Shown here: piece by piece, positions 35,566 to 41,775 of the stretch
How the letters are laid out: the number at the start of each line of letters is the position of its first letter
How positions within the stretch are numbered: the first letter of the stretch is position 1
Source of the DNA: a bacterium
Lineage (GTDB): Bacteria > Desulfobacterota > Binatia > UBA12015
Assembly (NCBI GenBank): GCA_030430245.1
Contig: JAUIFY010000008.1
Location: 1 to 51,566, forward strand
Direction of reading: 5' to 3'
Length of the DNA stretch: 51,566 nucleotides
Notes under the pieces: generated by a model
Told to the model about the DNA's origin: nothing
Seen by the model: only the letters and a program-made list of their open reading frames with translations
Databases searched by the model: none
Translations under genes and position numbers: made by a program

Positions 35566-37344
35566 TCACGACTCTGGAACGTGGAACACGTCGTCCGGGA
35601 GCTCGTCGTCGATCGCGGTGTTCCGACGGATGATGTCGGAGAGCCGGGTATTGCGAACCTCGGCACGCATCGCCGGGCCGAGCGTGCGCTCGTACCAGAG
35701 TCGGTCGCCATCCCGCAGCGCCGTGAACTGCTCGCTCAGGATCGCATGGACGAGCTCGCCGACCATCGCGCCCGCCACCGGCGTCTCGGCCAACGCTCCG
35801 ACCCAGAGATCGAGCTCCTCGACCCCGGAATAGACCGCCGCCATGCGTCCTGCCATCTCCGGATCGTCGGTCACGTCGCCCCACGTACGCGCGGGCGAGA
35901 GGTCGAACGCGCGGCGCGCGTCGTTGTAGCTCGGTAGGCCGTGGTCACGACCCCGCTGGATGTTGAGCGACGCGAGATCGAAGCCCCCCGACCCCGGAGG
36001 TCCGAAGAGGAAGTTCCGCACGTCGTCGATCACGTAGGGGTCGATCGCCTGACAGACCTGCGCGGCCAGCCCGCGCAGCACGGGAGCGATGCCGCCCTCG
36101 TCGGTGAGCCGCTGCGGCGCGAAGAACGCATCGCGAAGGGGCAGGTGCCCCGCGGCGATCTCGTCACCGTTCGCGTCCAGGCGAAGGAGCTGCGGACTGA
36201 GGGCGCTGTGACCGAATCGATACGCACCCGTCGAGAAGACGTTCGCGATGCTCGCGTCGAGCTGGGCATCGTATCCGTCGTACGGGGGAATCGCGTCCGG
36301 CCCCAGCAACGCCGGCAGGAACTCCTCATAGGTGACGACCTGCATCTGCGCGCCCACGATCCGCCGCGCCCGCTCATAGACCTGATCGCCGCTCAGGCTC
36401 GGGTCGTTCTGGCGGATCTGGTTCGCGAGCCGATTGTGCTCGCGCACGAAGAGGGTATGCATCGTGGAGAGGCCGACCTGCTCGTTCGCACGCACGTCAC
36501 CGGCGAGGAAGAGCGCGTCGCTGCTTCCGCCTGCGTTGGGCAAGCCGACGTCGTTGAACGGCAGCAGCCGGCCCTCGCTCATGCGCAGCCGCCCCGTTCC
36601 GTCGTTCGTGCGTAGGGCTTCCGCGCGCTCCGGGTCCGAGCCGTAGACGTTCGACGCATCGATCCACCCCGTGATCTCGTTCACCTGCTGACGGATGCCT
36701 TCACCATCCACCTCGTAGAGCGAGCGGTTGAAGTCGATCGACTGCGCTCCCGTGCCGGTCGGATCGAAGAACGGGTCGCCACTCGGAATCGTGATCGCCG
36801 CCGGCTCGGGCGGGTCGGTGCCGTCCGTGAGATCGATGTCATGGTCGAGGAACTGTCCCCACTGCCAGAGGAAATCCGAGACCCGTCGCGCGTTCTCACG
36901 CGACTCGCTCTGCGCGCAGACCGCATTGCTGATCTCCCGGGCGCCCGGGCGGTCCTCTCCCGCGAACGCGGCGACGCCGTCCGCGTAATCGGCCGCAGCG
37001 AGGCGGAGCAGCGGGGTCTCGCTGGAACCGATGTCGCTGCGAATCGGATTGTTGTCCGATCCGTCGATCGTCCGGAAGAGCGGTCCGGCCGCCGGCGGGG
37101 CCGGACGCCGTGGGCCGGCACGCTCGATGCGCCGCACCGGAGAGACGTCGTTCGATCCCGGCCCGTCGGCGTCCGCCCCGGGGCCCGCTCCGTCCGGCGG
37201 CGGGCCGCCGGGCGGGCCGCCACGCTGTGCGCGGGCGTCGCCGACGAACGCCGAGAGGAGGATCCACCCCGCGGACGCAATCACGATCAGGAACGCCATC
37301 GCGAGCGAGGCTCTCGTTTCGGGCGCCTTCGTCACCGCCTTCAT
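35566..37344 (-). CDS. Secreted animal-type (myeloperoxidase-like) haem peroxidase
   Basis: 592 residues. A signal-anchor (LAMAFLIVIASAGWILLSAF) is followed by a Gly/Pro linker (RGGPPGGPPPDGAGPG). The catalytic domain carries the full mammalian set: QWGQFLDHDIDL supplies distal His168 and the ester-forming Asp167; AGDVRANEQVGLSTMHTLFV matches the AGDTRSSEMPELTSMHTLL of myeloperoxidase with catalytic Arg285 and second ester Glu288 (the Met of myeloperoxidase is Gln); AYRFGHSAL gives proximal His379. REHNRLANQI and YEEFLPALLG are conserved too. It should oxidise halides or phenols with H2O2 outside the cell. Translation is coupled to the EF-hand gene by ATGA. Residue numbers are from my own count. 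Confidence 0.93.
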   Translation of the reverse strand: MKAVTKAPETRASLAMAFLIVIASAGWILLSAFVGDARAQRGGPPGGPPPDGAGPGADADGPGSNDVSPVRRIERAGPRRPAPPAAGPLFRTIDGSDNNPIRSDIGSSETPLLRLAAADYADGVAAFAGEDRPGAREISNAVCAQSESRENARRVSDFLWQWGQFLDHDIDLTDGTDPPEPAAITIPSGDPFFDPTGTGAQSIDFNRSLYEVDGEGIRQQVNEITGWIDASNVYGSDPERAEALRTNDGTGRLRMSEGRLLPFNDVGLPNAGGSSDALFLAGDVRANEQVGLSTMHTLFVREHNRLANQIRQNDPSLSGDQVYERARRIVGAQMQVVTYEEFLPALLGPDAIPPYDGYDAQLDASIANVFSTGAYRFGHSALSPQLLRLDANGDEIAAGHLPLRDAFFAPQRLTDEGGIAPVLRGLAAQVCQAIDPYVIDDVRNFLFGPPGSGGFDLASLNIQRGRDHGLPSYNDARRAFDLSPARTWGDVTDDPEMAGRMAAVYSGVEELDLWVGALAETPVAGAMVGELVHAILSEQFTALRDGDRLWYERTLGPAMRAEVRNTRLSDIIRRNTAIDDELPDDVFHVPES

Positions 37345-37661
37345 CGCTGCACCGCCCGTCCGGCGCCACGGCCGCCCGAGGGCGGTCGCAGCTCGTCGCT
37401 CGTCAGACTTCCGTCTCCGTCTGCGTCCATCCTCGAGAACCGCTCCTCGCCGTGCTGGAGCATGGGCGCGAGGAACTCGTCCTCGGTGACGGCTCCATTG
37501 CCGTCCACGTCGAGCTCTTCGAAGCTCGGGGGGCGATGGCCGCCGGAGCGTCCCTGACCGGTCGAGCCTCCGGGGCCTCCGCCCGGGAACGCGTCCGCAC
37601 CGCTCGCAGCCAACGAGCACGCGGCGGCGAGCACGACTGCCGAAACTCGAATGCGCTTCAT
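37341..37661 (-). CDS. Small secreted EF-hand protein
   Basis: 106 residues from ATG 37661; AAGGAG eight bases upstream decides the start. Signal peptide MKRIRVSAVVLAAACSLAAS, cleavage near ADA, then a Gly/Ser/Pro linker. Two canonical EF-hand loops: DVDGNGAVTEDE (51-62) and DADGDGSLTSDE (79-90) keep Asp/Asn/Thr/Glu at positions 1, 3, 5, 9 and 12. Two hands predict a Ca2+-binding or sensing protein in the periplasm. It is the first gene of the haem peroxidase operon and overlaps it by ATGA. Animal peroxidases need a bound Ca2+, so supplying calcium or acting as a partner is a reasonable inference. Confidence 0.92.
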   Translation of the reverse strand: MKRIRVSAVVLAAACSLAASGADAFPGGGPGGSTGQGRSGGHRPPSFEELDVDGNGAVTEDEFLAPMLQHGEERFSRMDADGDGSLTSDELRPPSGGRGAGRAVQR

Positions 37662-37707
37662 CCTGTGGTCTCCTTGCTGTTGCCGGAAAGTCGGCGCAGC
37701 ACCGCAG

Positions 37708-37723
37708 TGCGAGCCGCGTGCCA
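37708..37723 (-). promoter_or_regulatory. Sigma-54 (-24/-12) promoter of the EF-hand/peroxidase operon
   Basis: On the minus strand TGGCACGCGGCTCGCA matches TGGCAC-N5-TTGC at 9 of 10 positions, with the invariant GG and GC exactly 10 bases apart. It points towards the EF-hand ATG at 37661 and would give a leader of about 36 bases. A gene for a GAFTGA-containing activator lies divergently, as expected for such a promoter. Confidence 0.85.
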
Positions 37724-37766
37724 CCCGAAAACGCCACGCGGATGCGCGACGCCGACGCCGTCGGGG

Positions 37767-37799
37767 TGCGGACTCCGCAGTCCTCGTGCGGGATCCGCA
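37767..37799. promoter_or_regulatory. Two tandem activator sites TGCGG-N3-CCGCA
   Basis: TGCGGACTCCGCA (37767-37779) and TGCGGGATCCGCA (37787-37799) share perfect 5-3-5 symmetry and are spaced exactly 20 bp, two helical turns. They lie about 76 and 96 bp upstream of the inferred sigma-54 start site, the usual distance for an NtrC-type enhancer. They also sit 84-116 bases before the kinase gene, so autoregulation is possible. Confidence 0.7.
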
Positions 37800-37882
37800 T
37801 GCGCACCTGCTCCTGCACGCCGCCGTCGCTGGCGTTTTCCGCGCGCTCCGTATGGAATGCCGCTTGCGAAACGAGCTGCCCG

Positions 37883-39331
37883 ATGAGCGACGCGCCCAAC
37901 ACCGATCCCACGACCTCGCTTCGCCGCATCCGCTGGGCGCAAGCGATCGCGTTCGGGGTCATCGCGGTCGCCTTGGTCGCAACCGCGCTACAGAGCTTCG
38001 TCGGCGCGCGGCGGTCCGCCGAGACGCTCACCATCGGTCAGGGCCGGCGCCTGCTCGATGCCGTGCAACGGGAGCACCACCGCTACGGGCGCGAGATCGA
38101 GCAGCACCTCGACGAGGTGCTGCGGCAGAACGAAAAGTTCGGACTGCGGTGCATCGGACTTCCGCGCCGCGACCGCGTTCAGCGGGTCGGACACTGTCTC
38201 CTCTCCGGGCCCGCCATGCGAGAGATGCTGCGCGATACGAAGCCGGACCGCGCCGTGACGGTGGGCGATCACATCGCGATGGTCGACCAGCCCGAGCGTC
38301 CCGGTCTCCCGGGAGGAGGACCACCGACGGGCCGGCCGCTCGACGGCTTCGAGCCCCCGGCACGACGATTCGACGGACCTCCGCCCTCCGGGCGACGGGG
38401 CGCCGGCCGCGGCGTCGACGAACCTCCGACACGCGGAGTCCGACCGCCCCCGCACCCGGCCTTCGGCGAAGACTTCCGCCGTCCGCCGCCCGGACGCGAC
38501 GGGCCTCCGCGTGGCGCGCCTCACGTTCCACCCGTCGTGATCGAGTTCGAGCCGATCCAGGCCGAGGCGTTGCAGTCCTCCGTCACGCGCGGCGGGATCG
38601 TCGCCCTGATCGCCGTCGTCGCCCTCCTCGTGAGCGGCTTCGTTCTCTTCCGCCTGAGCCGCCGCGCCGAGCAGCTCCAACAGCAAGCCGAGCGCGACCG
38701 TCGGCTCGTCACCCTCGGCGAGATGGCCTCGGTGCTCGCCCACGAGATCCGGAACCCGCTCGCCGCTCTGAAGGGGAACGCGCAGATCCTCGCGGAGCAG
38801 CTGCCCGACGACGCACGCGAGCGACGCGGCGCTGACCGTGTGGTTCGATCCGCGATCCGGCTCGAGGCGCTCACCGAAGACCTCTTGAGTCTCGTCCGGT
38901 CGAGCGAGGTGAACCGCACGAACGTCTCTCCCGAGGCCCTCTTGCACGAGTCCCTCGCGCAGATCGACTTCGACCGATTCGAAACCGACACCTCGAAGGC
39001 GCCCGCGACCTGGAGTCTCGACCCGAGCCGGATGCAGCAGGTCCTCGTGAACCTGCTTCGGAACGCGGCCGAGGCTTCTCCCCATGGACTCCCCGCGTCG
39101 GTCGAGATCGCCGAACGTGGCGGCCGGCTCGTGATCGCCGTCCGCGACGCCGGCGACGGCATTCCCGTGGGCGAGGAAGAGCGCATCTTCGACCCCTTCG
39201 TGACGAACCGGGTCCAGGGAACGGGGCTCGGACTCGCCGTCGCACGGCGCATCGTCGAGCTCCACGGAGGAACGATTCGTGGCCGGAACCTCGACTCGGG
39301 TGGCGCCGAGTTCGAGGTCGTGATTCCGTAG
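37883..39331 (+). CDS. NtrB-type sensor histidine kinase with periplasmic sensor
   Basis: 482 residues from ATG 37883. Membrane helix one (~20-41) and helix two (~237-258) enclose a ~195-residue periplasmic region. This begins with a helical stretch ([20 protein letters not shown]), has Cys90 and Cys105, and ends in a long Pro/Arg/Gly-rich segment (~136-217). The cytoplasmic part has no PAS domain: HisKA with His287 in [18 protein letters not shown], then the ATPase N-box [26 protein letters not shown] and [11 protein letters not shown]. It feeds the response regulator 9 bases downstream. The Gly/Pro tracts echo those in the EF-hand and peroxidase proteins. The cysteines suggest redox sensing, which is inference. 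Confidence 0.9.
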
Positions 39332-39340
39332 GAGGCCGAC

Positions 39341-40672
39341 ATGGCCCGCATTCTCGTGGTCGACGACGAAGAGGACATCCGCAGCTTCCTGGCGGACGCA
39401 CTCGGCGCAGAGGGACACGACGTCGCGGAGGCTCCCGACGGCGAGGCAGCATGGTCCCGACTCGGTGCCGAGGGGTTTCACCTCGTCCTGACCGACCTTC
39501 GGATGCCGCGGTTGGACGGAATCGAGCTCCTTCGAAGGCTGCGCCAGACGCAGCCCGAGGTCGAGGTCATCGTCCTCACGGCACACGGGAGCGTCGACAG
39601 CGCGGTCGAGGCGATGAAGCTCGGCGCGTTCGAGTACCTGCAGAAGCCGATCAGCGGGCCGGCCGAGCTCCGACTCGTCGTGTCCCGCGCGCTCGAGCGG
39701 CGGTCCCTCGCCGACGCGCGGGAGGAGGGGGTCCGAAGCCGCGAACGCGAGGGCATCCGCCTCTCGTACGGCGCGCCGTCGATGACGACCGTCGAAGATG
39801 CGCTGCGAAAGGTCGCGAAGACGACGTCGACGGTGCTGCTCCAGGGAGAAAGCGGCACGGGCAAGGAGGTCGCCGCGCGTGTGATTCACGCGTGGAGTCC
39901 GCGACGCGACGGCCCCTTCGTCGCCGTCAACTGCGCGGCGCTCCCGGAGAGCCTTCTCGAGAGCGAGCTCTTCGGACACGAGAAGGGAGCCTTCACGGGG
40001 GCGGTCGACCGGCGGCGAGGACGGGTCGAGCTCGCCGACGGTGGCACGTTCTTCCTCGACGAGATCGGCGAGCTCAAGCCGGACCTGCAGGCGGCGCTTC
40101 TGCGCGTCCTCGAGAACCGGAGCTTCGAGCGCGTGGGCGGAAGCCAGACCCTCCGGGTCGACGTCCGATGGATCGCGGCAACGAACCGCGACCTTCAAGC
40201 GATGATCGCCGATGGCCGGTTCCGAGACGACCTCTACCACCGCTTGTCGGTGTTCCCGATTCACCTGCCCCCGCTGCGCGAACGGCGCGACGACATCCTT
40301 CCGCTCGCGGAGACGCTCCTCCCCGCCATCGCGCGGCGCATCGGCATCGCGGAGCCGTCGCTCACTCCGGAGGCCGCGCGGCATCTGGCCGCCGCGCCGT
40401 GGCCGGGGAACGTCCGCGAGCTCGGAAACGCTCTGGAGCGAGCGGTGATCCTCGCCGATGGAGCACCGATCGCGCCCGCGCATCTGACGACGGGAAGCAC
40501 CGGGACCGCACCGAGCGACACCCCCACGGACGGCACCCTCGCCGATCTCGAGCGCGCGGCCGTCGTACGCGCCCTGCAGAGATGGGATGGCAACCGCAAG
40601 CAGGCCGCCGAGGCGCTCGGGATTGGGCTCCGCACACTCTACGACAAGCTGAAGCGGTACGAGATCGACTGA
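39341..40672 (+). CDS. NtrC-family sigma-54-dependent response regulator
   Basis: 443 residues; GGAGG precedes the ATG. Receiver domain 1-120 with phospho-acceptor Asp52 in [17 protein letters not shown] and Lys102 in LQKPISG. AAA+ domain ~145-370: Walker A GESGTGKE (169-176), sigma-54 loop GAFTGA (216-221), Walker B FFLDEIGE, arginine finger region [21 protein letters not shown] Fis-type HTH ends the protein ([20 protein letters not shown]). All parts for activation of Esigma54 are intact. It is encoded with the kinase and is expected to act at the two TGCGG-N3-CCGCA sites to turn on the EF-hand/peroxidase promoter. Confidence 0.95.
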
Positions 40673-40845: not shown

Positions 40846-41775
40846 ATGTCGCGCGTCGTTCTCACCCTCTTGCTCCTTCCCGCGATCTTCGGCGCCGGAC
40901 CGGCCGTAGCGGACGACCCGCCACAGCTCGCTCGAACGTCGGGCACGATCGAGGTCCGGCACGCGGGGCTCTCGGGGCTCGCGATCGATGGGGATGGGGT
41001 GATCTGGGCCGTACCGGAGCGCGAGCGTCGGCTCGTCCCGCTCCGGCGCGACGGCGATCGTCTCGTTCCGGCCGGCTCCTCCGTGCCCATCGAAGGCGTG
41101 CCCCGCACCCACGACACCGAGGCGATCGCCTGGCTCCCGGACGGCCGCGTCGCTCTCGGGACCGAGACGCGGCGGCCACGCACCGGGGACGAGATCCTCC
41201 TCGCGCGACGCGACGGAGACGTCTTTCGCGTCGACGATCGGATCGTCCTTCCCTACGCTCCCTGGAAGCTGGATGCGCATCCCAACAAGGGCATCGAAGG
41301 GCTCTGCTTCGCGGGCGGCCACCTCGTCGCGGGGCTGGAGATGGCGATGGCACAGGGACGGACCCGCCACGGACCGATCGCCGTCTACTCCCCGAAGGAG
41401 AAGGTGTGGACGGCCTACCGCCTACACCTCACGAGCTCCCGCGGAAAGCTCGCCGCCCTCACCTGCCGCGAAACGGACGACGGCATCGAGGTCCGCGCGA
41501 TCGAGCGCCACTTCGGGACGAGCCACCTGTTGGGGTTCACGATCGCGCTCCCGCCGCGCGAGGGCGTGATCGAGCCCGAGATGCTGGGCTCGCTCTATGG
41601 GACCGACAGCGCGGGGCCGAACTTCGAAGCGATGGCCTGGCTCCCGAACGGCGAGCTCGCGATCGTCGCCGACAATCACTACGGCCGGGTCACGGGGCCG
41701 ATCGACTCGCTGATCGTGTCGCTCGGTCCGGACCATCCGCCGACGACGGCCGAGGCGAAGAGCGCGGACGACTGA
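40846..41775 (+). CDS. Exported phytase-like/esterase-like beta-propeller protein
   Basis: 309 residues, ATG at 40846 with AGGAGGGAG upstream. Signal peptide VVLTLLLLPAIFGAGPAVAD. The remainder fits the phytase-like (esterase-like activity of phytase) fold: LSGLAIDGDGVIWAVPERER, DTEAIAWLPDGRVALGTETR, NKGIEGLCFAGGHLVAGLEM, NFEAMAWLPNGELAIVADNH, each a blade with a conserved acidic residue. Members are exported, and phosphatase activity is known for some only. It is close to the sigma-54 regulator but not clearly co-transcribed. Its TGA touches the transporter's stop codon on the other strand (TGATCA, no gap). Confidence 0.8.
   Translation: MSRVVLTLLLLPAIFGAGPAVADDPPQLARTSGTIEVRHAGLSGLAIDGDGVIWAVPERERRLVPLRRDGDRLVPAGSSVPIEGVPRTHDTEAIAWLPDGRVALGTETRRPRTGDEILLARRDGDVFRVDDRIVLPYAPWKLDAHPNKGIEGLCFAGGHLVAGLEMAMAQGRTRHGPIAVYSPKEKVWTAYRLHLTSSRGKLAALTCRETDDGIEVRAIERHFGTSHLLGFTIALPPREGVIEPEMLGSLYGTDSAGPNFEAMAWLPNGELAIVADNHYGRVTGPIDSLIVSLGPDHPPTTAEAKSADD

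Follow-up and report, generated by a model that had tools for sequence, protein, structure and literature searches.

A palindrome pair as the probable enhancer of a neighbouring NtrC-type regulator beside a divergent EF-hand gene in the Binatia

What is the role of two palindromes lying in the gap between a divergent EF-hand gene and a histidine kinase/response-regulator operon? The window, a 51,566-nucleotide stretch of a genome from the Binatia, houses the pair in a 221-bp gap (37662-37882). The preliminary description had placed two 13-mers there, with 5-bp arms and a 20 bp spacing, and had read them as cooperatively bound sites of an NtrC-type activator. The coordinates proved exact, the arms are perfect, the start-to-start distance is 20 bp, and both palindromes match the pattern GTGCGG-N2-TCCGCA under which they had been described.

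37767-37779, no strand: palindrome 1, TGCGGACTCCGCA, perfect 6-1-6, at the same place in the orthologous loci L046, L047 and L048
37787-37799, no strand: palindrome 2, TGCGGGATCCGCA, 20 bp from palindrome 1, kept in orthologs

Written in the 6-1-6 form TGCGGA-N-TCCGCA, palindrome 1 is a perfect fit and palindrome 2 has one mismatched pair. Since the 16 half-sites of four loci yield the consensus TGCGGA with an A/T-rich centre, this form describes the motif better. A perfect 10-nt inverted repeat (GAAAACGCCA / TGGCGTTTTC) also occupies 37727-37736 and 37830-37839, and its centre (37783) is exactly that of the palindrome pair; its conservation is not obvious beyond a T-rich tract in L046.

Single palindromes are not enriched and one alone is unremarkable. 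The genome (6.34 Mb) has 16 exact copies, compared with 66 of a reversed control pattern, and the window contains four matches at ≤1 mismatch versus 4.6 expected. The pair behaves otherwise: none of 4,000 dinucleotide-preserving shuffles of the window's gap yielded an equally good one, and the genome scan, in a genome 87.5% complete, found it nowhere else. No good partner at 20-21 bp was found for the other single palindromes of this genome, and only 3 of 14 of them, none paired, had a sigma-54-like element (score 24-25) within 200 bp. The motif had been offered as a lead to further targets of the regulator, to be found by scanning for GTGCGG-N2-TCCGCA pairs. That expectation was not borne out, as the scan, in which only pairs were scored, returned a single pair per genome. 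The regulator therefore looks local and autoregulatory.

The genes on either side of the gap are as follows.

35566-37344, minus strand: animal-haem-peroxidase-type protein (Pfam An_peroxidase, 2.7e-156)
37341-37661, minus strand: small secreted-type EF-hand protein, 106 aa, two EF-hand loops (Pfam EF-hand_1, 7e-10)
37883-39331, plus strand: membrane sensor histidine kinase (HisKA, HATPase_c), ATG at 37883, best NCBIfam match ZraS
39341-40672, plus strand: NtrC-type response regulator (receiver, sigma-54 AAA+ and Fis-type HTH domains), presumed binder of the pair

The EF-hand gene, with its ATG at 37661, is the first gene of a leftward operon and was found in all four divergent orthologous loci. 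The peroxidase gene overlaps it by ATGA; it occurs in L046 and L048, is missing from L047, and is therefore an optional part of the operon. On the other side, a presumed cognate activator with sigma-54 AAA+ and Fis-type HTH domains, as an NtrC-type enhancer calls for, is encoded next to the pair, and the genome has one copy of rpoN. The HTH domain of the regulator covers residues 395-443 approximately, and its 14-residue HTH segment is nearly invariant across the pair-holding orthologs. No close paralog of this HTH was found in the genome, where the next-best HTH is 48% identical; among the matches listed in a scan of genome contigs with the regulator, the paralogs are 39-50% identical, and these were set aside. 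Downstream of the regulator lies a gene for a secreted protein (40846-41775), with an apparent counterpart at the same place in L046. The kinase has two cysteines, C90 and C105, in its predicted extracytoplasmic sensor domain that are invariant in all five orthologs, and a role in metal or redox sensing is possible for them. Its structure model (mean pLDDT 72.5, pTM 0.41) combines a long helix with a sensor domain that is small and includes beta structure, and is too weak to point to a particular signal.

Clear orthologs of the regulator occur in only 5 of 148 genomes of the class, spread over four families; the distribution is patchy even within its own genus (two of four genomes). The pair is carried by four orthologous loci from three families, the window's own included, and the response regulator is 76, 68 and 64% identical to its three pair-holding orthologs. 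These three genomes (G002, G020 and G018) share the divergent EF-hand gene and all carry the pair in that gap, as TGCAGATCCCGCA-7-TGCGAAATCCGCA in G002 (spacing 20 bp), TGCGGAATCCGCA-8-TGCGGATTCCGCA in G020 (21 bp) and TGCGGGATCCGCA-7-TGCGAGATCCGCA in G018 (20 bp). The sites were compared directly, as a MAFFT alignment of the gaps had set those of L047 out of register. For each of the three gaps, too, 0 of 4,000 shuffles beat the pair. A degenerate pair, TGCGNNNYCCGCA-N6-9-TGCGNNNYCCGCA, scanned independently of genes, occurs at only four places in the 148 class genomes, three of which are the promoter of orthologous loci, while the fourth ortholog, from the same genus, has the pair with one mismatch per site. 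A degenerate match in G111 (TGCGGGACCCGCA / TGCGCCGCCCGCA) was taken as chance, because just one strand matched and the arms were poor. Among 395 genomes drawn from the phylum, no degenerate pair was found beyond the same three places. A looser pair was found at exactly one place each in G000, G002, G018 and G020, always at the orthologous promoter, and the distant regulators of family f43 (53%) showed no pair. Because only five class genomes have an ortholog, few loci underlie this footprint, and two of these come from a single genus. The frequency of the single motifs would fit a chance pair in a GC-rich gap, but a pair and spacing kept in four orthologs, at one place per genome and unmatched by shuffling in any of the four gaps, make that explanation practically negligible.

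The fifth genome with an ortholog, G105, lacks the EF-hand gene. Its kinase/regulator operon retains a sigma-54-like element and a weak pair, with four mismatches and equalled by 7 of 4,000 shuffles. Since this pair persists in the absence of the EF-hand gene, it is the regulator that the sites accompany. A gene for a small secreted Cys-containing protein (L135:6040-6330) replaces the EF-hand gene in G105, before the kinase and in the same direction. A second kinase/regulator copy (57%) lies about 6 kb further on without the pair, and no site was found at this second response regulator. The persistence of the weak pair bears on the alternative that a different regulator, a repressor or one-component activator, uses the palindromes as its operator, with the neighbouring response regulator binding elsewhere. 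A single GC-rich palindrome of such a size would be a suitable site for many dimeric regulators; however, a pair that occurs once per genome, adjoins the kinase/regulator operon and outlasts the EF-hand gene makes such an operator very unlikely, and the promoter geometry below argues in the same direction.

Candidate sigma-54 promoters face outward on both sides of the pair.

37708-37723, minus strand: -24/-12 candidate TGGCACGCGGCTCGCA for the EF-hand gene, score 27/29, pair centre 60 bp upstream
37853-37868, plus strand: -24/-12 candidate TGGAATGCCGCTTGCG for the kinase operon, score 25/29, pair centre 70 bp upstream

The arrangement of an NtrC-type enhancer, a pair of dyad sites lying upstream of -24/-12 promoters, was thus found in four gaps, each with candidates on both sides of the conserved pair. 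The distances from pair centre to -24 are 60/70 in the window and 62/69, 70.5/60.5 and 82/70 in the orthologous gaps, with 70.5 in G105. They cluster in one 10.5-bp helical phase (R 0.86, Rayleigh p ~2e-4), a statistic in which the orthologs are not independent and the weak G105 pair is included. This distance and phase fit sigma-54 activation at both promoters, which speaks against the operator of a different regulator. If transcription begins some 12 nt past the GC of the -12 element, the pair is centred at about -86 and -96, within the range of 80-150 bp upstream that is usual for enhancers (PMC4987338).

The two promoters differ in quality. On the minus strand, the -24/-12 element TGGCAYGNNNCTCGCW is conserved in all four orthologous gaps, and the window's candidate gives a leader of 36 nt that contains AAGGAG. 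The plus-strand candidate, whose TTGCG is at 37864-37868, has counterparts in L046, L047 and L048; that of L047 (G020) has CGG instead of TGG, the only degenerate -24 among the eight promoters. This candidate would give the kinase mRNA a leader of just some 4 nt ahead of the ATG (37853-37885), and its L046 counterpart one of about 3 nt. The exact position of this element is therefore doubtful: either the kinase mRNA would be near-leaderless or the element may be misplaced. The regulator might bind the pair while only the EF-hand-side promoter depends on sigma-54, the kinase/regulator promoter being of another kind that the pair represses or leaves unaffected. The better-conserved minus-strand element with its leader, and the scant plus-strand leaders of two loci, agree with this proposal. 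However, a plus-strand GG-N10-GC element with a good TTGC or TCGC is present in the right phase in 4/4 gaps, and no sigma-70-like promoter was found on the kinase side of the gap. We consider this one-sided arrangement unlikely.

The position of the pair also bears on a role in RNA. Each palindrome could form a 5-6 bp stem, as an attenuator or terminator hairpin would, but the loops would be 1-3 nt without a T tract, a search for a terminator found none, and both palindromes lie upstream of the predicted starts of both operons. This reading was rejected as extremely improbable.

Taken together, the palindromes very probably act as a tandem upstream activating sequence that serves the sigma-54 activator whose gene lies at 39341-40672. 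The NtrC-type enhancer proposed in the preliminary description is supported by the joint recurrence of pair, 20-21 bp spacing, promoters and kinase/regulator genes in four orthologous loci; the cooperativity that it included is something we infer. Judged from the sequence, the membrane kinase would sense an envelope signal and phosphorylate the regulator, two dimers of which would bind, probably cooperatively, to the two palindromes, which share a face of the helix and are separated by about two turns. The AAA+ domains would then assemble and, through looping, act on sigma-54 RNA polymerase at the -24/-12 promoters to either side. The kinase-regulator operon would thereby be switched on in positive autoregulation, and the divergent EF-hand (and peroxidase) operon would be activated as well. 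From its single pair per genome, the regulator appears to be local and autoregulatory.

This arrangement resembles the zraP/zraSR divergon of enterobacteria, in which divergent sigma-54 promoters share a gap that holds the response-regulator site and the regulator has one main target (PMC4987338, PMC8249747, PMC7657598). In both, a secreted accessory gene of metal-ion-binding type is divergent from an operon for a histidine kinase and an NtrC-type regulator, with a shared sigma-54 control region. Unlike ZraPSR, the accessory protein here is an EF-hand protein and the operon includes a peroxidase gene; no ZraP-type zinc-binding periplasmic chaperone was found at the locus, where Pfam gives EF-hands only. 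The kinase and regulator score 171 and 366 bits against NCBIfam cut-offs of 479 and 760 for ZraS and ZraR, so that orthology is not indicated. By analogy, the locus would work like ZraPSR yet is no member of it, because of these scores, far below the cut-offs, and of its EF-hand accessory protein.

The NtrC site is TGCACC-N5-GGTGCA. As with NtrC-type tandem enhancer sites, two dimer sites share a face of the DNA and are located upstream of -24/-12 promoters; unlike the NtrC site, which is longer and of other sequence, the motif here is TGCGGA-N-TCCGCA, 13 bp, with sites 20-21 bp apart. Response-regulator sites are commonly inverted repeats of 4-6 bp with spacers of 3-8 bp (PMC3333781), a format that the palindromes, by comparison, suit in general. 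The motifs of Desulfovibrio vulgaris NtrC-family response regulators are likewise of this form, and DAP-chip with comparative genomics assigned these regulators local sigma-54 targets (PMC3333781, PMC4641369), as proposed here. The string TGCGGA-N-TCCGCA had no textual match in the D. vulgaris motif papers, whose logos are figures, and was matched to no regulator in the literature text searched.

The element is of a well-supported, ordinary type, and its EF-hand partner is unusual: the type of switch is known, whereas the motif is its own and the partner gene encodes a calcium-binding-type protein. An unusual pair spotted by eye in raw sequence can thus be validated through conservation across genomes. 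The analysis gives one NtrC-type regulator, otherwise unassigned, a specific DNA site and a probable target set, and connects sigma-54 control with a haem peroxidase and a secreted EF-hand protein. Tentatively, and with less likelihood than the enhancer itself, the locus might be a calcium- (or other metal-) linked sigma-54 envelope-response circuit, in which the EF-hand protein would take the feedback role of ZraP and the paired enhancer would be the sole control point.
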